Position numbers and translations under genes: made by a program. The notes beneath the pieces were generated by a model that ran no database searches, was not told where the DNA came from, and worked only from the letters and a program-made list of their open reading frames with translations. A stretch of DNA of 40,315 bases from a virus: positions 1 to 40,315 of IMG/VR virus record IMGVR_UViG_3300017971_000473; one strand, written 5' to 3'. Every line of letters begins with the position of its first letter. Within the stretch, counting starts at the first letter, position 1. Below, one piece after another: positions 1,942 through 40,315 of the stretch.

Positions 1942-2289
1942 TTACGTGGTGCGTTTCTTCCGGCTGGGCGTCTTCCGGGCGGCTTTCTTCTTGGCGGGCG
2001 TCTGGCGGCCCCGTGCGGCCCGTTTCGGCGTGGGCGGTTCGTCCGGCGCGTCGGGCAATCGGTCCCCGTCCCCGGGCTGGCCATCTTCCACGATCAACTC
2101 GTCGTCGTCGTCGATACCCGGGCGGAATTCGTCCGGGTCCGGCGCGTCCATTTCGTCATCCGGCGGCCCGAACAACTCGTGGCGGGCGTCGGCCATCCCA
2201 CCCCGGAACGCGTCCACGACGGCGTCCCGTGTGTCGGCCCGCAATTCGTCCAACTCGTGGCCCATGTTGAGCATTTCAAACAATCCCAT
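1942..2289 (-). CDS. hypothetical protein, acidic centre with Lys/Arg-rich tail
   Basis: 115 aa, ATG at 2289 preceded by the strong ribosome binding site CGGAGGATGAC. The N-terminal 45 residues are probably helical (LFEMLNMGHELDELRADTRDAV). Then comes a strongly acidic, Pro/Asp-rich stretch and a basic C-terminal tail (PAKKKAARKTPSRKKRTT) of the kind seen in histone H1-like and other nucleic-acid-binding proteins. No family is recognised. It is the last gene of the minus-strand early block. The basic tail suggests DNA or RNA contact, but that is inference only. Confidence 0.7.
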   Translation of the reverse strand: MGLFEMLNMGHELDELRADTRDAVVDAFRGGMADARHELFGPPDDEMDAPDPDEFRPGIDDDDELIVEDGQPGDGDRLPDAPDEPPTPKRAARGRQTPAKKKAARKTPSRKKRTT

Positions 2290-2290
2290 G

Positions 2291-2587
2291 TCATCCTCCG
2301 TTGTGGTTGTGCGGTCGATTGGAAGGGCTGACCGCGTGGCCCGTTATTCGTCGTATTCTTGCGGCGCGCCAACGACCCCGGCGTGTCCAGAAAAGCGGGG
2401 GGGGGTCGTCGTCGTGGTACAACACCCACGCGGCCAGACTGTTGGGGCCAAGGCGTTCACGGGCGGTGTGCTCGGCTGTTTCGGCGGCGGCGTGGGCGTT
2501 GGGCGCGAAAATCAACGTACGTTCCGCCAAGGACGACGGCCCCACCACTAGAATGGTTAACCAGTACATGCGATGGGAGCGTTTCAT
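2291..2587 (-). CDS. small hypothetical protein, reading frame possibly shifted at a G9 run
   Basis: The ATG at 2587 overlaps the stop of the upstream gene (ATGA), implying translational coupling. The first about 65 residues (MKRSHRMYWLTILVVGPSSL, later NSLAAWVLYHDDD) look like normal coding sequence. At a run of nine G on the plus strand (2397-2405) the frame as written continues into an Arg-rich stretch ending NRPHNHNGG at 2291. A one-base change in the run would instead give a tail ending GAPQEYDE with a stop at 2344, which looks more like real protein and resembles the acidic C termini of neighbours. Either a sequencing indel or real slippage could explain this. Function unknown. Confidence 0.5.
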   Translation of the reverse strand: MKRSHRMYWLTILVVGPSSLAERTLIFAPNAHAAAETAEHTARERLGPNSLAAWVLYHDDDPPPLFWTRRGRWRAARIRRITGHAVSPSNRPHNHNGG

Positions 2588-3261
2588 TCGTCCCCCCCGT
2601 CGTCGTCGTCGATATGGGGCGGTTCGTACGACCCCACGACCGGCGGGGCCAACGGGGCGGCGTCCCAACATTCCATGAACGCGTGGACAATGGCCACCCC
2701 CTCGTCCGCGTGGCGGTCGACACAACCGCGTTGAGGCGTCCCCAACGCGGACATGGCGACGTCCCACGGGCTGGCCCCGTCGGCCATGTCGGACACCGGG
2801 CGGTTTTCGGCGGCCACCCGTCGAAAGCCACCCGGCGGCGTCCATTCGTGGAAAATGAGCAACCGCGCGCCAGTCACACACACTCGGACGTCGTGTCGTA
2901 CGGCCCGTGCGGCGTCGTAACTGGACACGGCGGCCCGATGGGGCAAGGCCCCCACGGCGGCCACGGCGCGTTCCCACGCTTCCCGGTATTCTTTATAGTA
3001 CGCGGCCCCGGCGTCGGACGCGGCGTCGTGCCACGTGAACACGCGGCGGGGGGCTAGTGCCATTTTCTTGGCCCATTCGCGGGCGGGGTCGTTGTCGATT
3101 GTCGAAAACGCCCGCACGACGTCCACCCGGTTGGTGGTGGTGTCTAGTCGCATGGCGTGGACAAGGCCCCCCGGGCTAATTGCCACAAACGCTTGGAAAC
3201 GCCCGGCGTCGTATCGTCCGACGGCGTCTAGCGGGTGGAGGGTGGTTACGTGTCGCGTCAT
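2584..3261 (-). CDS. hypothetical early protein (225 aa)
   Basis: The start is the ATG at 3261 (MTRHVTTLHPLDAVG), preceded by AAAGGACAAACAGAC. An upstream in-frame ATG at 3360 would overlap the previous gene and is rejected. The protein is a mixed alpha/beta sequence without membrane segments, with a probable beta region around FQAFVAISPGGLVHAMRLDT, a helical centre (YYKEYREAWERAVAAVGAL) and an acidic tail (IDDDDGGDE). No family was recognised. It lies in a minus-strand operon of small genes each with its own ribosome binding site, the usual setting for early host-takeover or anti-defence proteins, but nothing in the sequence proves such a role. Confidence 0.7.
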   Translation of the reverse strand: MTRHVTTLHPLDAVGRYDAGRFQAFVAISPGGLVHAMRLDTTTNRVDVVRAFSTIDNDPAREWAKKMALAPRRVFTWHDAASDAGAAYYKEYREAWERAVAAVGALPHRAAVSSYDAARAVRHDVRVCVTGARLLIFHEWTPPGGFRRVAAENRPVSDMADGASPWDVAMSALGTPQRGCVDRHADEGVAIVHAFMECWDAAPLAPPVVGSYEPPHIDDDDGGDE

Positions 3262-3349
3262 GTCTGTTTGTCCTTTCGGTTGGTGCCCAATTGTTGGGCT
3301 GCTCAATTGTTGGGCGGGGGCCATTTCGACGACCCCCGGTGGTGTAGTC

Positions 3350-3517
3350 CTATTCGCCAAGGTGTCTAGTTAGTCGCGTGTCCGATTGGGATAGGCGACG
3401 TGTTCCGGGGCGTCCAGCAACGAATGCGTAGACCGGGCGGGGGAAGTTTTCAAAGCCAAAGGCCACATTTAGGGCCAATCGGCGGACGGCGTGGGCGGTT
3501 GTGTGCGTGTCTTCCAT
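3350..3517 (-). CDS. small hypothetical protein (55 aa)
   Basis: ATG at 3517 with a good ribosome binding site (CAGGAG eight bases upstream) and a TAG stop at 3350-3352. The sequence is MEDTHTTAHA followed by a basic stretch (VRRLALNVAFGFENFPRPVY). No domain is recognised. The spacing to neighbours (one base to the upstream gene, 88 bases to the downstream start) and the strong ribosome binding site support it as a real gene of the minus-strand early operon. Confidence 0.6.
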   Translation of the reverse strand: MEDTHTTAHAVRRLALNVAFGFENFPRPVYAFVAGRPGTRRLSQSDTRLTRHLGE

Positions 3518-3518
3518 C

Positions 3519-3923
3519 TTATTCTCCTGTTGCGTCCGGCGTCCAGACGGCGGCCCATTCGGCGGCCAGTGCGGACCCGGTGGGGTTGTTGAGCGTGGCC
3601 CATCCGGCGGGCGGCTCAGGGTTGACAGTGGCGACGTGGACCAATTCCTCGGCGAACACGTCCCCCCATTCGGCGGCGTCCTTGTCCCCGGCGTCGACCA
3701 ACTCACGGGCCAACGCGTTGTGGTAAAGGAAAGCGGCCCCGGCGTTGTGTGTGCGGCCAGCGGCGGACCGGGCGGCCCGGATGGCGTCCGAGGCGTCGAG
3801 TGGGGCGAACGACGGCGTGTCTATGGGCATGGCCACGACGTGGACGCGTCCGTGGTGGATGGCCACGCAAATGGCCCACCCGGCGCGAAACCGGACTGTC
3901 TTTCGGCGGGGCTGGCTAGACAT
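3519..3923 (-). CDS. hypothetical early protein (134 aa)
   Basis: Start chosen at the ATG at 3923 (MSSQPRRKTV), which has AAAGGGGG upstream and overlaps the end of the preceding gene by eight bases. The longer frame to 4037 would overlap that gene extensively. Visible parts are a beta-rich N terminus (FRAGWAICVAIHHGRVHVV), a helical centre (ASDAIRAARSAAGRTHNAGA) and a conserved-looking AEWGDVFAEELVHVATVNPE. The layout FRAGWAICVA...VHVVAMP is reminiscent of the beta region in the 2584-3261 product, so the two may be distant paralogues. No known family recognised. Confidence 0.65.
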   Translation of the reverse strand: MSSQPRRKTVRFRAGWAICVAIHHGRVHVVAMPIDTPSFAPLDASDAIRAARSAAGRTHNAGAAFLYHNALARELVDAGDKDAAEWGDVFAEELVHVATVNPEPPAGWATLNNPTGSALAAEWAAVWTPDATGE

Positions 3924-4221
3924 TGGCGGCCCCCTTTCGTCCCAATCCCTTGGCGTCGAGGGCGGCGTCCTGGATGGCGACGGCCAGCGCGTGGACGTCG
4001 TCCGGGCTGGCGTGGTCGCAAGCGTCACGCGGGACACCCCATTCCTCCGGGCGGAAGTCCAAGACGTTGCGCCACGCGTTGTTTTTGTCCAGCGACATAA
4101 CGCGGACGTGGCCCGTGTCGCATAGCATCAGGAACGCGGCCAATTGGTACGTGTTGGCGAATTGCGCCAACTCACGGTCCCCGGTGGGGGTCCATCCATA
4201 CACGCGATAGGTCAAAAACAT
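3916..4221 (-). CDS. hypothetical early protein (101 aa)
   Basis: ATG at 4221 preceded by CACAAGGAGAATGCC, a leader shared in near-identical form with the starts at 5535 and 5051. The product starts MFLTYRVYGWTPTGDRELAQ and has a mixed alpha/beta pattern with a helical C terminus (DDVHALAVAIQDAALDAKGL). No family recognised. The stop overlaps the next gene's start by eight bases, so the two are probably translationally coupled. Confidence 0.7.
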   Translation of the reverse strand: MFLTYRVYGWTPTGDRELAQFANTYQLAAFLMLCDTGHVRVMSLDKNNAWRNVLDFRPEEWGVPRDACDHASPDDVHALAVAIQDAALDAKGLGRKGAANV

Positions 4222-4289
4222 GGCATTCTCCTTGTGTGGGTCGTCCAGCAAGGGGCCACACAACCGCGTGTGGCCCCGTCTGACGCGTT

Positions 4290-5051
4290 CTAGTCGTGTT
4301 GGGGGTCCGTGGGGTGGGGAAGGAACGCGGTGGCGTCCTGGGGGCATTCCCGGGCGGTTTCGGCGTGGGCGTCGGCGACGTCGGCACACTCGGCACACAA
4401 CCACCCGTCCACGTCGTTGGACGCGTTGCGGGCGTCCACGGACTGACCGCAACCGCTGCACGCGGTTATGTGGACGCGGCGGCGGATTTCGCCCGGCTGG
4501 CGGTCCGCGTGTTTGGCGTTGAACGCGGCGGCGTGGGCGGTGTCGCCACCCATGTGGCCCGTTACGACGTCGTGAATGGCGTCCAGTCGGCGGACGGTCA
4601 CCACGTCGTGGCGTTTTGCGGCGTCCAGTTGGTCACGGGCAATCTGACGCAACACGGCGGTGGCGATGGCCCACGGCGTTTTCCCGGCGTCCTTGTCGGG
4701 GCGTCGTTTCATTTGCCAGTGGAGACCCTCCTCGTCCACCCACGGCCCCAACGCGGCGGTGTTGACCTCACCAAACCCGAATTGCGCCAAGGCGGCGGCC
4801 AGACCGCGCGGCCCCTCGCCACCATACCCCCACGCGAAACCGCTAAACACGCCCACGCCCTTGGCCCCGTAAAACCAGACCTCCGCGACGTTGGCCCCGT
4901 GTTCGTTCTTGCGGACGCGTCCTTGGACCATGTGGACCGGCCCAATTCGTCCGTGGATGGCGTGGACGGCGTCCAAGCTAATGCGCGTCACGCCCCCCGC
5001 GTTGTCGTGGTGGCGTCGTTCGTTCCCGTGTTGTGTCGTGGTGATGGCCAT
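4290..5051 (-). CDS. hypothetical protein with C-terminal zinc ribbon
   Basis: 253 aa, ATG at 5051 preceded by CAAGGAGAATCAGAT. The N-terminal half is probably beta-rich (VHMVQGRVRKNEHGANVAEV, VWFYGAKGVGVF). A helical middle follows (PWAIATAVLRQIARDQLDAA). Near the C terminus two Cys pairs, CSGC and CAEC, are separated by about 18 residues, the spacing of a zinc ribbon, and the tail is His/Asp-rich. No overall family is recognised. It is the second gene of the minus-strand early operon. A nucleic-acid or protein-binding role through the zinc ribbon is plausible but inferred. Confidence 0.7.
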   Translation of the reverse strand: MAITTTQHGNERRHHDNAGGVTRISLDAVHAIHGRIGPVHMVQGRVRKNEHGANVAEVWFYGAKGVGVFSGFAWGYGGEGPRGLAAALAQFGFGEVNTAALGPWVDEEGLHWQMKRRPDKDAGKTPWAIATAVLRQIARDQLDAAKRHDVVTVRRLDAIHDVVTGHMGGDTAHAAAFNAKHADRQPGEIRRRVHITACSGCGQSVDARNASNDVDGWLCAECADVADAHAETARECPQDATAFLPHPTDPQHD

Positions 5052-5115
5052 ATCTGATTCTCCTTGAGTGGGGAAGATGGCCCCGGGCGTTGTGCCCGGG
5101 GCGTGTGGTGCGTTT

Positions 5116-5535
5116 CTAGTCGCGTGGGCGGGGCGGGATCGGGCACCCGGTGCCGACGTTTCCGACCGGCTGATGCGAACCTCGCTCGAACCACAATTCG
5201 GTCAAGTCGTCGTCCGTCGGTCCGTGTTCCTTGGCGGCGTCGATGGCGTCCCGGATGACGCGCCACGGGGTTTTGGACACAATCGCGGTCCGGTCGTTCA
5301 AGTGGCGGTCAAACAGAATTCGGGCGGCCACGGCGGCGGCCAAGTGGTAGTCTTCAAAGCCTTCAGCGCTGACGGTGTCGGGCATGTTGCGTGTGATGTT
5401 CGCCACCACGAATTGGCACAGTTCGCGGTACATGTCGGGAACGCGGCCCGACATGTCGCCAAGGCGGTCAACCATGGAATTAGTCATAAGTCGGCGGGCG
5501 TCGGCGGCGGTCAAAGTCGCGGGGTTGCTGGGCAT
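5116..5535 (-). CDS. hypothetical protein, first gene of the minus-strand operon
   Basis: 139 aa, ATG at 5535 with CACAAGGAGAACGAC upstream. The protein is mostly helical (ARRLMTNSMVDRLGDMSGRV, MYRELCQFVVANITRNM, EDYHLAAAVAARILFDRHL) with a Pro-rich end. No family recognised. As the promoter-proximal gene of the leftward operon, and the one nearest the operator cluster at 5598-5714, it would be among the first proteins made if that promoter is early. It has no evident helix-turn-helix, so I do not call it a repressor. Confidence 0.7.
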   Translation of the reverse strand: MPSNPATLTAADARRLMTNSMVDRLGDMSGRVPDMYRELCQFVVANITRNMPDTVSAEGFEDYHLAAAVAARILFDRHLNDRTAIVSKTPWRVIRDAIDAAKEHGPTDDDLTELWFERGSHQPVGNVGTGCPIPPRPRD

Positions 5536-22723: not shown

Positions 22724-23263
22724 ATGGCCAAGTCCAAGCCACGAAAACCGTTGACCGAACACCAATTGGCACGCGTCGAGGCGCTAGCTTATGACGGGCT
22801 GACCAATGGCGAAATTGCGTTGACGTTGGGGATCCCGAAAGTCCAGTTGACGGCGGACGGCGGGGTGGCACTGGCCCGGGGGCGGGACGCCAAGGCAACG
22901 ACCGTTGGCGAGGACGTGTTGCGGCTGGCGGCTCAGGGTATGACTGCGGAAGACATAGCGTTATTGGTGGGCATGTCACGCACAACGCTTTATAAGCGCT
23001 TCCGGCCACTACTGGACCGGGGGCGGGCAATGCGTAACCAGTCGTTATTGGAGGCCATGTTCGACACGGCGGTAAACGACCGATCGGCACAAATGCAAAT
23101 CTGGCTGTCAAAGCAATGGTTGGGTATGCGTGACCCGGAACGGGAACGCCCGGACGTCGAGGGGCAATCGGCGGACGATCTACGCCACGAACTGGCGGCC
23201 ATGGAAGCGGCCACGCGTGTGGACCCGCCAACGGAAAACACCACGGACGGGGGCGGGCAATGA
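22724..23263 (+). CDS. terS: terminase small subunit (HTH)
   Basis: 179 aa. Two helix-turn-helix-like segments are visible: GLTNGEIALTLGIPKVQLTA and AQGMTAEDIALLVGMSRTTL (residues about 70-90), followed by a helical region (RAMRNQSLLEAMFDTAVNDR, then WLSKQWLGMRDPE) that is typical of small terminase/phage DNA-binding proteins. The ATGA overlap with the large subunit supports the call. It would recognise the packaging initiation site and stimulate the large subunit. Confidence 0.82.
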   Translation: MAKSKPRKPLTEHQLARVEALAYDGLTNGEIALTLGIPKVQLTADGGVALARGRDAKATTVGEDVLRLAAQGMTAEDIALLVGMSRTTLYKRFRPLLDRGRAMRNQSLLEAMFDTAVNDRSAQMQIWLSKQWLGMRDPERERPDVEGQSADDLRHELAAMEAATRVDPPTENTTDGGGQ

Positions 23264-24537
23264 ATTGGGAAACGCTACGTTACCACCCCGTCCAGCAGGC
23301 GGCGTGGCGGTCAACGGCCCGGTTTGTGGGCATCCACGCGGGGCGCGGCTCAGGCAAAACCATGTTGGCTAAGCGCAAGCTGGCGTTGGAAGCGCTGAAG
23401 CCCACCCGTGACCGTCGGCTCTTGTTCTACGTGGCCCCCACCACGCAGCAGGCTAAGCGTATTGCGTGGGACGACATGTTGGAATTACTAGACGGGTACG
23501 TGGCCCGCGTGATGATTTCGGATAGCTACATAGAAACCGTGGTGGGACACCGTCTCTACGTTTGCGGGCTGGACAAGCCAGAACGTATTGAGGGCAAGCA
23601 ATACGCGTTTGGCGTTTGTGACGAGTCTAGCGACCTCAAGTCACGCGCGTTTGAGCGGTCGATTCTTCCGGCGCTTATCGACGTTCCCGGCGGCTGTTGG
23701 CGAATTGGCATTGGCAAGCGGCACGGACCAAGCGGCCCGGAATTCCGCCAATGGTGCGTTGAGGCCCCCAACGTGGCGGACCGGGAAGTGTTCACGTGGC
23801 CAAGCGGCGAAATAGCCAACGCCCAAGTGGTGGCGGCGGCACGCCACGGAATGGACGCCCGGGACTACCTGGAGCAATTCGGCGGCGATTGGTCGGACGG
23901 TGGCGGCGGCATCTATCACGCGTTCCACCGTGCCCACAACGTGCGACCGTGCGCGTACGATCCCCACCGGGAAATTGTCGTGGGTATGGATTTCAACGTG
24001 GACCCCATGTGTTGGACCTTGGCCCATGACTACGGGTCACGGTTGGAAGTGTTCGCGGAGGTCTTCTTGAGGGACACCAACACCCCGGCGGCGCTGGACG
24101 TCCTACACGGGCGATATCCACGCCATCGGTCCGGCTGGGCGTTCTACGGGGACGCGGCGGGACGCGGTCGACACACAAACGCGGACGTGACCGACTACGC
24201 GCTAGTCAACAACGACCCGCGATTTATTGAGGCGGGGCGTACAATCAACTACCCACGGGCCAACCCACGGATTGCAACGCGTTTCGCGACGGTCAACGCG
24301 TTGTTGTGCAATGCGGACAACGTCCGGCGGTTGTACGTGGACCCGGGCTGCGTTCATCTAATACGCGACCTTGAGGGGCTGGCGTACATACCGGGGACCA
24401 ACGACCCGGACACAAGCGGAAATATCGGCCACATGGCGGACGCGCTGGGCTACCCGATAATGTTTCTCTATCCCATGCCCGTGGTGGCCACGGTTGGAAG
24501 CGTGGGCGTTTACGACATGGACACGCAAGGGGTATAA
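23260..24537 (+). CDS. terL: terminase large subunit
   Basis: 425 aa. ATPase: Walker A AGRGSGKT (27-34), Walker B FGVCDES with Asp121-Glu122. Nuclease: GMDFNVDP with Asp244, and downstream acidic residues (FYGDAAG at about 294-300, then NADVTDYALV). This is the standard two-domain packaging motor that pumps DNA into the prohead and cuts it. The length is normal. It is followed three bases later by the portal gene. Confidence 0.95.
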   Translation: MNWETLRYHPVQQAAWRSTARFVGIHAGRGSGKTMLAKRKLALEALKPTRDRRLLFYVAPTTQQAKRIAWDDMLELLDGYVARVMISDSYIETVVGHRLYVCGLDKPERIEGKQYAFGVCDESSDLKSRAFERSILPALIDVPGGCWRIGIGKRHGPSGPEFRQWCVEAPNVADREVFTWPSGEIANAQVVAAARHGMDARDYLEQFGGDWSDGGGGIYHAFHRAHNVRPCAYDPHREIVVGMDFNVDPMCWTLAHDYGSRLEVFAEVFLRDTNTPAALDVLHGRYPRHRSGWAFYGDAAGRGRHTNADVTDYALVNNDPRFIEAGRTINYPRANPRIATRFATVNALLCNADNVRRLYVDPGCVHLIRDLEGLAYIPGTNDPDTSGNIGHMADALGYPIMFLYPMPVVATVGSVGVYDMDTQGV

Positions 24538-24539
24538 CA

Positions 24540-25880
24540 ATGGGCATTCGGCAAATGACGGGCGACGTGCTGGGCAAGCTGGCGGACTGGATGAAACCCT
24601 CCGGCACGGACGCGGAAACTACGGGAAGCCAAACCGGCGGCCAAACCGTTGGAATGGACGACGGGGTGAGTGAATACGACAGGGCGAACGCATACGCCCT
24701 ATATCGGGATATTCGACGGCTTCCCACGGTGGCGTTGGCCCGGGCGGTGGCGGTGGCCCCAATCATCGCGGCGGACTGGGCGGTGGAAGCGGACGACGAC
24801 GCCCCGGCGGGAATGGCGGACCTTGTCGAGGACGTGTTCACGAATCAACGGCGGGAACTGTTGGAGCCCGCGTTGTTTTTTGGATACCTTGACTATGGTT
24901 GGTGCCCGTTTGAAAAGATCTGGACCGAACGCGACGGCGCGTATGTAATACGCAAATTCAAACCCCTCCTCCACGACCTAACGTCCATCGTCGTGCGGTC
25001 CGATAACGGGGCGTTTCTCGGGTTTGCTCAGGGCGACACGCGGTTGGCGTTACCCGACACGCTGTTGTTTAGCTGGCGTGTTGAGGGCACCAACTGGTAT
25101 GGGGAATCCATCTATTCCGGGTTGCATCGTCACGGGCTGTTTGACGCGTGGCTAGACGCCAACGCGTCGGCGGGTCGTTACGACGTCAAATTGGCGGGGC
25201 GTATTATCGTGTGTCGCCACCCTCAAGGGCGTTCAAGGATCCGGGGCGTTGAGAAAGACAACGACCAAGTGGCGAGAGACCTATTGAGCGACGTCAAGGG
25301 AAGCGCGGGCGTAGTGTTGCCATCCACCCCGCAAACCATCGGCGCGGAGACAACGGACGCGTGGTCGTTGGAAATGTTGGAAAGCGGCGGAAGCGGCCAA
25401 CCCGGTTTCGTGGCCCGTCTCAAGTACCTTGACGCCCAACTCGTCCGGGCATTGGTCATGCCGGAACGCGCGGTTCTTGAGGGGTCCACGGGTACGCGGG
25501 CGGACGCGGACGCCCACGGCGACGTCGGGTTGACCGTGGCGGAACTGGCCCATGAACAAGCCACAACGATTGTCAACCGCCACGCGGTACGCGCGGTGCT
25601 GGAATACAATTTCGGTCCAAGCCAACGCGACAAGGCCCGGTTGGTAGCGGCCCCATTGGTCGACGAAAAACGGCGGGCAATGTCCGAAGTCTACGCGGCC
25701 ATTTTGGCCAACCCGGCGGGGGCGTTGGAAGAATTCGAGGCGCTGGACACGTCGGCCATGCGTCAGACAATCGGTCTACCGGAAAAGACGGGCGGGGACT
25801 ACGCCACGGAAGGAATGGACCCCAACGCCCCGGAAGCGGACGCGGTGGCGGCCATTTACGACACCATCGCGGGGGAGTGA
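24540..25880 (+). CDS. portal protein (DUF935/Mu gp29-like)
   Basis: 446 aa. Matches the DUF935/phage portal family of Mu-like phages: YALYRDIRRLPTVALARAVA, ELLEPALFFGYLDYGWCPFE, KFKPLLHDL, FSWRVEGTNWYGESIYSGLH, later SGQPGFVARLKYLDAQLVRA with VMPERAVLEGSTGTRADADA and a C-terminal acidic tail. It forms the dodecameric ring at the capsid vertex through which DNA enters. The position between terminase and MuF protein is canonical. Confidence 0.9.
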   Translation: MGIRQMTGDVLGKLADWMKPSGTDAETTGSQTGGQTVGMDDGVSEYDRANAYALYRDIRRLPTVALARAVAVAPIIAADWAVEADDDAPAGMADLVEDVFTNQRRELLEPALFFGYLDYGWCPFEKIWTERDGAYVIRKFKPLLHDLTSIVVRSDNGAFLGFAQGDTRLALPDTLLFSWRVEGTNWYGESIYSGLHRHGLFDAWLDANASAGRYDVKLAGRIIVCRHPQGRSRIRGVEKDNDQVARDLLSDVKGSAGVVLPSTPQTIGAETTDAWSLEMLESGGSGQPGFVARLKYLDAQLVRALVMPERAVLEGSTGTRADADAHGDVGLTVAELAHEQATTIVNRHAVRAVLEYNFGPSQRDKARLVAAPLVDEKRRAMSEVYAAILANPAGALEEFEALDTSAMRQTIGLPEKTGGDYATEGMDPNAPEADAVAAIYDTIAGE

Positions 25881-25881
25881 A

Positions 25882-27855
25882 ATGAAAGCGGCGGGGCCAG
25901 TTTCCAAGGCGGACCGACGGTTGGCCAACAGGATAAACGCGGACAAGCGGCCATTGGAACAAGTGGCGGCGGTGGACGCGTTGCGCTGGACCCGGCGAAT
26001 AGTTCGCGACGTCGTGGGCGCGGCCAAGCGCGGCGACGACGTGGAACGCGCGTTGGAGGCGGCTATCTACTCACGGAAAGAAACGCTGACCGCGCTAATG
26101 GTGGCGGCCCATGCGTTGGGCGTCCGGCGGACCCAACTCCAATTCCCCCAACGCGTGCTTGGGCTGTCCGACACGTACAAAGGCGGCGCGGAGGACTATC
26201 TGGCCCGTCAAAAGCTGTTGACACCGGCGGACCGCGCGGAATTGGTGGCGTACTACGGACCGGCGGCGGAACGCGTGTTGGGGGGAATGTATGACGCGCA
26301 AAACACGGCGGCGCGGGCGGCCATTCTGGACGCGGCGCAGGTGGGTATGCACAGGCGACAAGGCGTTGAGGCGGTCAAGGACGCATTGGCGGCGGCGGGG
26401 TTGGCCCCTCAAAACTCATTCACGTGCGAGGCCATCTTCCGCACACAAACCCATTCGGCCTATTCGGCGGGGCGCTGGCAAGTAGCACAGGATCCCGACA
26501 TAGGCGAAATTCTATGGGGCTACAAATACCTGACCGTCGGCGACGACCGCGTTAGACCGGACCACGTGGGGTTTGAGGGTTCACGGCTTCCCAAGAACGA
26601 CCCGTTTTGGTCGTACGCGTGGCCACCCAACGGTTGGGCGTGTCGTTGCGTCACGATAGAAATTCTGGCGGATAGCGACGAGGCGTCTACGATCGAGCCC
26701 CACATGGGCCAGATAGTCGACGGCAAGCCCACGCCCCCGGCTATCCCGTCGGCGTTCATGGTCAACCCGGGGCAAGTGGCCACGGGCGATTATGTCCCGA
26801 CGATCCGGCGGACCAAGTACCGAAAGCACCGAAAGCCCGTAGCGACTGGCAAGCCACAACCCAAGCCTAAGACCAAGCCTAAGACTAAGGCCAAGGCGGC
26901 CAAGGCGGCGGCCACAACGCGGGCGGCTGGCCCGGCACGCGGTTACACGGTCCGCAAGGGACACGCCAAGGTGGGCGACGTGGAAGCGGCCACGGGCCAC
27001 AAGACCATGGACGACGTGGCGGCGCTTCCGGCCCGCAAGAAACTGGAGGAGGCGGGTATTCGGATTGAATACTTGCCGTCCACGGACCCGGACGTGGCGG
27101 CGGCGGTCGAGGCGGTCATCGCGGAACACATTGCGAAATACCCGGCCCTTGCCACATACATGGAAATGGTGGGGACACAACAGACGATTGCAATTCAACA
27201 CATATTGAACTATCACGAAACGGCGGTGGCCCGGCTGGCCCTAATAAGCCCACCGGGGACGCCCGAATATGCAAGGCGGCTGGCCATCCTTGAGGCGGAA
27301 CGGGACCGGCAAATAGCCAAGGCCCAAGCGAAATTCGTTGACGATGCTTTTGCGTCCGCGACACCAACAAAGGGCGTACGCGGCGTCATGGTGGGCGACG
27401 TCATGGGCGATAGTAAGAGCGTATGGAATGCGGAAAAGGCGTCGTCCCATGCGTCCGGGTGGTCCGTATCCAAAAACATGGAGGGGTCCGTCACTCACGA
27501 AATGGGGCACGTTATTGAGTACCGTCTAATGGTCGTCGACCCGGACACGGGAGACATTCTGGACCCCGTCATTAAATCGGCACTTGCCCCGGGCGCGGAA
27601 ACGGAGGCCATGTTCTACTTTAAGAACGTGTCCGACTATCCGGCGGCGGTGGCGTCCAAGGCGGAAACGGCGGTCCAGCAAGCGGCGGGTGGCGGCGGTG
27701 TCGCGGGCAAGCGTGCGCGGAAGCTCACCATAAAGGCCCGGCGGGAAGCCATCGCGGAACTATGGACCGAATACGTAACCCACCCCAACCCGAGACCGTT
27801 GGCCATTAAGGTTGGCAAGCGGCTGGAAACCCTGTTGGCCAAGGCGGCCAAGTAG
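25882..27855 (+). CDS. MuF-type head morphogenesis protein fused to an HExxH metallopeptidase-like domain
   Basis: 657 aa, one base after the portal stop. Residues about 1-270 form a MuF (Mu gp30/SPP1 gp7-like) domain: CEAIFRTQTHSAYSAGRWQV and WGYKYLTVGDDRVRPDHVGF (DDRVRPDH at 221-228) with WPPNGWACRC. A basic Lys/Pro linker (PKPKTKPKTKAKAAKAAA) follows, then a second domain of about 300 residues containing VTHEMGHVIEYRL, whose HExxH motif (His539, Glu540, His543) is that of zincin metallopeptidases. MuF proteins can be ejected with DNA, and MuF fused to toxin or enzyme domains is a known theme. The metal activity is inferred from the motif alone. Confidence 0.85.
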   Translation: MKAAGPVSKADRRLANRINADKRPLEQVAAVDALRWTRRIVRDVVGAAKRGDDVERALEAAIYSRKETLTALMVAAHALGVRRTQLQFPQRVLGLSDTYKGGAEDYLARQKLLTPADRAELVAYYGPAAERVLGGMYDAQNTAARAAILDAAQVGMHRRQGVEAVKDALAAAGLAPQNSFTCEAIFRTQTHSAYSAGRWQVAQDPDIGEILWGYKYLTVGDDRVRPDHVGFEGSRLPKNDPFWSYAWPPNGWACRCVTIEILADSDEASTIEPHMGQIVDGKPTPPAIPSAFMVNPGQVATGDYVPTIRRTKYRKHRKPVATGKPQPKPKTKPKTKAKAAKAAATTRAAGPARGYTVRKGHAKVGDVEAATGHKTMDDVAALPARKKLEEAGIRIEYLPSTDPDVAAAVEAVIAEHIAKYPALATYMEMVGTQQTIAIQHILNYHETAVARLALISPPGTPEYARRLAILEAERDRQIAKAQAKFVDDAFASATPTKGVRGVMVGDVMGDSKSVWNAEKASSHASGWSVSKNMEGSVTHEMGHVIEYRLMVVDPDTGDILDPVIKSALAPGAETEAMFYFKNVSDYPAAVASKAETAVQQAAGGGGVAGKRARKLTIKARREAIAELWTEYVTHPNPRPLAIKVGKRLETLLAKAAK

Positions 27856-39279: not shown

Positions 39280-39307
39280 CCGGGCAACGTGCCCGGACTA
39301 CGTTTTT
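39280..39307 (+). terminator. terminator after the virion genes
   Basis: Perfect 7-bp stem CCGGGCA (39280-39286) with TGCCCGG (39290-39296), 3-base loop, and five T at 39303-39307 after a six-base spacer. The gap before the T run makes it weaker than the other terminators. Confidence 0.6.
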
Positions 39308-39327
39308 CCTTATTGGAGGGTTGTGTA

Positions 39328-39882
39328 ATGAAGTTTCTCGAAATTTTGCGGTTGGTCATGACCAAGGGACAGGAAATCTTGGACCTATTCCGGGAAATCC
39401 CGTTCGACGAAATCACCGACATGCCCGAATGGCGTGACCTTGCCGACGTGCAACGGTGGTGTTTGGCGTTGTGCAAGGGCGCGGACGAGGTGGCGGACCT
39501 GACCGACACGGCGGTGGACGACGACATGGTGGCCCGTGTCCGCGCGTTCGTCGAGTCTGACATGTTCGGCTATGCCCATGTGTTGTTGGTCAACCTGTTG
39601 TTGAACAACGTACCACAAGGCCCGAAACCGGGGACACCGGAGGACACGTTCACCATTCAAATGTTGGACGCCATCAACGCGCCCAAGGCGGACGGCCACC
39701 ACCACGAGGACGAGGCGTTTCCCGTGTGGGTTATCCCGTTGATTATTGAGGGCGTCAAACTGTTGGTGTCGTGGATCCGTACGCGGGACGTCAATTACGG
39801 CGGAACGCCCCCGGCCCCCACGCAACCGAAACCGGCCACGCCCACGGTCGACGACGTGGCGGCGGAGGGGGGTGACGTTTGA
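39328..39882 (+). CDS. hypothetical protein with one membrane segment, lysis-region candidate
   Basis: 184 aa, ATG at 39328 with TTGGAGGG. Mostly helical and acidic (ILDLFREIPFDEITDMPEWR, CKGADEVADLTDTAVDDDMV), then a His-rich hinge (GHHHEDEA) and one membrane helix (FPVWVIPLIIEGVKLLVSWI, about residues 130-150), with a Pro/Thr-rich tail. The stop overlaps the TTG start of the secreted protein gene. Unknown family. The location after the tail genes and the membrane anchor suit a lysis or envelope role. Confidence 0.62.
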   Translation: MKFLEILRLVMTKGQEILDLFREIPFDEITDMPEWRDLADVQRWCLALCKGADEVADLTDTAVDDDMVARVRAFVESDMFGYAHVLLVNLLLNNVPQGPKPGTPEDTFTIQMLDAINAPKADGHHHEDEAFPVWVIPLIIEGVKLLVSWIRTRDVNYGGTPPAPTQPKPATPTVDDVAAEGGDV

Positions 39883-40315
39883 CGCGGTACATTCTCGCTA
39901 TCATCGGGGCGGCGCTGTTGTGCGTCGTCCCCGCGTGGGCTGACGACGGCCCGCCCGTTCAAGTGGCCCCGGGTAGTCCGGTGGCGGTCATCAACGGCCC
40001 CACCCAAACGGACCCGGGCAACCTTTGCGTGTTCACGTCCGACGGAAGCGTGGGCGCTCAATTCAAGTGGGCTATCTTCCCACAAGAAAAGTGGGCTGGG
40101 CGCTACTTTATCGCGGAACAAGGGAGGACGGTCATTTTCGCAAGCAACACCCCGGGCACACTCACGTTGGTGCTGGCCACGTGCGTGGACAACGAGGTGG
40201 CGCTGGCGGTCCACGAAATGACCAACGGCGACGACCCCGGACCCGGACCGGGACCGGACCCCCCCCCCCCCCCCCCCCCCCCCCCCGGGCCGGAAAAAAA
40301 AGGGGGGGGGGAGGG
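39879..40315 (+). CDS. N-terminal half of secreted Ig/PKD-like protein, continues at base 1
   Basis: Starts at TTG 39879, overlapping the previous stop. A Sec signal peptide is clear: MTRYILAIIGAALLCVVPAWA with cleavage expected after AWA, before DDGPP. The mature part (VQVAPGSPVAVINGPTQTDP, VGAQFKWAIFPQEKWAGRYF, GRTVIFASNTPGTLTLVLAT) is a beta sandwich of the PKD/Ig type. A GPGPGPD and poly-Pro linker follows and the frame runs off the window into base 3 (see the 1-362 entry). The product would be exported to periplasm or envelope. Last bases of the window are low-complexity and untrustworthy. Confidence 0.75.
   Translation, partial: MTRYILAIIGAALLCVVPAWADDGPPVQVAPGSPVAVINGPTQTDPGNLCVFTSDGSVGAQFKWAIFPQEKWAGRYFIAEQGRTVIFASNTPGTLTLVLATCVDNEVALAVHEMTNGDDPGPGPGPDPPPPPPPPPGPEKKGGGE
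40260..40315 (+). repeat. low-complexity right edge, degenerate copy of the left edge
   Basis: 27 C, GGGCCGG, 8 A, 10 G, AGGG. Aligned to bases 1-45 (CCCCCGCCACCACCGGGGCC, then a run of 7 A, then TAGTGGTGATCGAGG) it keeps the same order of blocks and nearly the same lengths but with mixed bases replaced by homopolymers, as poor end-of-contig calls would give. Confidence 0.7.

Follow-up and report, generated by a model that had tools for sequence, protein, structure and literature searches.

Does the window, by which we mean the whole stretch of DNA analysed here and the entire viral record IMGVR_UViG_3300017971_000473 (40,315 bases), end in two truncated genes, or do its two edges belong to a single gene? 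A first-pass annotation had proposed the latter, on the grounds that the open frames at either edge are compatible and share the same linker and order of blocks. We conclude that the record is very probably an essentially complete tailed-phage genome that closes on itself and is broken within a single gene, at a C-rich linker.

Overlap between the two ends

The right edge of the window reads ...GACCGGA, then 28 C, then GGGCCGGAAAAAAAAGGGGGGGGGGAGGG, and the left edge reads CACCCCCGCCACCACCGGGGCCGAAAAAAATAGTGGTGATCGAGGA. The 28-C tract (40259–40286, + strand) lies at a linker of proline codons whose true length at that point is not fixed by the record; it is the longest homopolymer of the window, the next longest away from the right end having a length of 9. 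Within the last 57 nt the fraction of identical neighbouring bases is 0.875, whereas it averages 0.304 over the window and nowhere else in it exceeds 0.554. This homopolymer composition, far outside the range seen both in the remaining window and at 234 other locus ends, would favour the view that the poly-C/A/G tail on the right arose in the library (by tailing or from an adaptor) and is unrelated to the left end.

No exact terminal repeat is found in the window (length 0), and CheckV requires at least 20 bp repeated at the ends (PMC8116208). An overlap alignment forced through the right end and the first base matched 40270–40315 to bases 1–46, both on the + strand and without gaps, with 33 of 46 bases identical (72%). 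It scored 20, whereas 1000 random placements averaged 1.4 and never exceeded 10, and the best unrelated ungapped 46-mer in the window reached 27/46 on the + strand and 28/46 on the − strand, indicating that the ends overlap beyond chance once errors are allowed. The order of blocks is common to both ends. Comparing the two ends, as the first-pass annotation suggested, yielded an overlap of 46 nt but not an exact repeat.

The overlapping sequence is of low complexity. Together with the missing exact repeat, and considering that proline-rich linkers can be common in such proteins, this would suit a linear fragment whose ends are two different truncated genes that share such linkers by chance. 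The base-by-base agreement, however, does not stop at the linker, as 21 of the next 30 nt, in non-linker DNA, also match.

At all 13 mismatches of the overlap, the right-hand base repeats its own preceding base. This count alone is not independent evidence, since homopolymer-rich strings show such a property easily; the same rule was satisfied by only five unrelated 46-mers among 80,540, none with more than 23/46 identity. Independent evidence is provided by the transitions between bases in the right-hand copy, all seven of which agree with the left end. A tail added to the DNA would not follow the genome sequence, so the seven base changes, each at precisely the position where the left end carries that base, count against a library artefact, which we consider extremely improbable. 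Positions 40270–40315 are instead a degraded duplicate of bases 1–46 arising from assembly or sequencing, and bases 1–46 are the better-quality copy of the junction, encoding the end of the proline linker and GPKKIVVIEE. Sequencing error accounts for part of the right-end 'linker' P9-GPEKKGGGE: a Pro/Gly linker is present there, as first annotated, but its GPEKK ending is a degraded GPKK, and GPEKK with the following poly-G is an error-degraded GPKK-IVVIEE rather than real sequence.

The gene across the junction

From TTG 39879, which is preceded by GGAGGGGGG, an open frame leaves the right edge of the window. This 5' part of the junction gene (39879–40269, + strand) encodes a hydrophobic N-terminus (hydropathy peak 2.0) resembling a signal peptide, an Ig/PKD-like domain and the start of the Pro/Gly linker. 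The left-edge frame is open from base 3 and stops at 362; this 3' part (1–362, + strand) encodes the end of the linker and a C-terminal domain with a thioredoxin-like order of elements, and no Shine-Dalgarno sequence was found upstream of its first GTG, at position 33. A blunt join of 40315 to base 1 is out of frame and enters frame 2, with a stop at 262. When the overlap is collapsed, 39879–40269 and 1–362 together give 753 bases encoding 250 amino acids, open until the stop at codon 251, and shifting this join by −2, −1, +1 or +2 nt produces an early stop each time. Since in-frame agreement would occur by chance in about one case in three, the restored frame supports the join without proving it. 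Of the proposed compatibility of the two edge frames, the open frames and the block order stand, but the agreement appears only after the 46 nt are collapsed.

The joined gene overlaps both of its neighbours, the preceding gene (39289–39882, + strand) at its start and, by one base at its stop, the gene for a papain-like (C1) cysteine peptidase (362–1120, + strand), so that the join restores one tight same-strand gene run. With the overlap collapsed, the unit is about 40,269 bp long, a value that is provisional because the 28-C tract leaves the true number of linker codons unsettled.

For the C-terminal domain, a low-confidence structure model (pLDDT 55) predicted the order b-a-b-(b-b)-b-b-a. 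The best VIA-align Z score for this model was 3.4, with thioredoxins at 3.2 or below; no Foldseek match fell below E 0.03 and the thioredoxin matches were weak. We do not count the missing better fold match as evidence of a new fold. The CxxC motif of redox-active thioredoxins is absent from the translation of 3–362, which contains no cysteine. Fold matches of the Ig domain included two cysteine-protease inhibitors, 3pnr and 3m88; because these sit amid many unrelated Ig domains, a chagasin-like inhibitor is only a lead.

Relatives, the adjacent peptidase and genome content

Relatives were found via the terminase large subunit of the window (23260–24537, + strand; PF03237 Terminase_6N; phrog_2). 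In the uncultivated virus IMGVR_UViG_3300028607_001332, whose terminase is 40% identical to that of the window, a 246-codon gene lies directly before a peptidase gene of the same strand, and the two overlap. As in the window, its product has a hydrophobic, signal-peptide-like start, a beta-sandwich, a linker (PPPIIPDDPDDPDDPPDIDD, rich in Pro/Asp) and a C-terminal alpha/beta domain. The predicted order common to the two proteins is a beta-sandwich, a linker and a beta/alpha domain whose last elements are two strands and a helix (pLDDT 55 for the window model and 50 for that of the relative). In contrast to the window, where the pair follows the tail genes, the pair of the relative lies upstream of the terminase, and the two C-terminal domains could not be aligned by BLASTP (E 0.91, not significant). 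The resemblance is one of layout, length, gene context and element order, the last predicted from low-confidence models.

When the joined gene was translated and homologues were sought, as had been recommended, we did not see the two halves always as separate genes; one relative carries them as one. This single gene of the same layout before a peptidase gene, the open frame restored by the collapse and the left part lacking a start signal all speak against two different truncated genes, a reading that we regard as highly improbable. A second relative, IMGVR_UViG_3300024429_000004 (45,491 bases, terminase 49% identical), is a closed contig whose ends repeat 127 nt exactly, the trace left when an assembler cuts a closed template at its k-mer length (PMC8116208). 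The proposal that the window closes inside one gene is therefore upheld by the degraded overlap, the reopened 250-aa frame and the intact 246-aa gene, each observed directly, and by the terminal repeat of a relative.

The relative G005 was considered as a possible circular genome and rejected: the 99.9% identical G006 extends 1.2 kb past its end and does not come back to its beginning, which makes G005 a fragment, uninformative on topology. Other structural relatives, L097–L100, stop short of the junction region or reveal no genes of this kind and, among the relatives examined, no close one crosses the exact junction. Neither half of the junction gene gave relatives in IMG/VR, nor did the left half or the joined protein in the phage collection. 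Terminase matches among genome contigs reached at most 33–35% identity and were spread over several phyla, so no host can be named.

The peptidase at 362–1120 has Cys68, His178 and Asn195 in order, and these are invariant between the window copy and the gene of the relative. Against Pfam PF00112 the window copy scored 12.8 bits (E 0.13), below the gathering score of 20.7, whereas the copy of the relative passed this cutoff with 23.0 bits. Weak relatives of the window peptidase (28% identity, E ~1e-8) lie in two nearly identical IMG/VR contigs, the only ones recovered in the peptidase alignment and the only ones matched by the 246-aa protein of the relative. IMG/VR searched with the peptidase alone gave no relatives, genome contigs gave none, and the phage collection gave one distant match, in a 595-kb uncultured phage. 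Together with the exported protein, the papain-like peptidase may make up a lysis or virion-processing unit. More specifically, and tentatively, the junction gene and the peptidase gene might be a two-gene unit of a little-described phage group, in which the exported Ig-linker-thioredoxin-like protein would regulate, tether or help the peptidase in lysis or virion assembly.

Just past the peptidase, 1198–1434 and 1400–1858 each encode a small protein with about two hydrophobic stretches that may span the membrane; both are candidate holin-like proteins. This lysis-like region is followed by a block of minus-strand genes (1942–5535) to which functions are not assigned; the minus-strand gene at 4290–5051 gave no match when scanned against PHROG.

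Genes for terminase subunits, a Mu-type portal, a head protein, a protease, a capsid protein, a connector and a tape-measure protein are present, as are those for RecE, RecT, a replication initiator, RusA and a DNA methyltransferase. This set shows no obvious gap in essential functions, consistent with a complete genome. At 24540–27855, a Mu-type portal and a Mu F-like head gene stand beside a T4-type terminase and a capsid-E-like protein. No transposase or integrase was found among the genes scanned, a subset of those in the window.

Origin of the break and comparison with known closed contigs

CCN codons encode the proline linker, and the assembler would have halted at this C-rich stretch; the 28-C tract is the likely cause of the break. 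Reads running rightward may have lost phase in the C tract, with each weak base called as its predecessor, and the contig would have ended 46 bases past base 1 of its own opposite end. The overlap, thus degraded, would have escaped end-repeat detection, the assembler missing its identity with base 1.

For such a closure the template should have shown no ends in the read data, and it could have been circular, circularly permuted or provided with terminal repeats that the assembler collapsed. The Terminase_6N match is compatible with headful packaging, without deciding for circularly permuted virion DNA. If the virion DNA were instead linear and carried long, fixed direct terminal repeats encompassing the junction gene, their collapse into a closed path would produce the same assembly, and linear genomes replicating through concatemers are known to yield the same end-repeat signal (PMC8116208). 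We consider this form of a closed assembly unlikely, as the C-rich tract alone explains the break, the break falls in a series of overlapping genes about 16 kb away from the terminase genes, and no mark of a repeat boundary was seen.

With closure inside the junction gene as the preferred explanation, the record very probably represents a whole phage genome of ~40.27 kb; its final 46 bases should be removed, and the two truncated genes replaced by a single joined one. Circular contigs cut at arbitrary points are already well known, and the biology is ordinary; the gain is a useful correction of the record and an example of a closed contig missed by exact end-repeat tests because the break sits in a tract that sequences badly.

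Two known phenomena are comparable. Illumina errors are biased to the preceding base, notably after homopolymers, where strands that lag behind go on giving the signal of the earlier base (PMC8002175). The 13 mismatches of the window follow the same pattern; unlike those errors, they occur at the end of an assembled contig and not in reads. Assemblers, in turn, open circular templates at random positions, which leaves a repeat of k-mer length (PMC8116208). Compared to the 'DTR' contigs of CheckV, the repeat of the window is 46 nt long, degraded and missed by an exact-repeat test, but in both cases the ends duplicate since the template closes, and the break is arbitrary and falls inside a gene.
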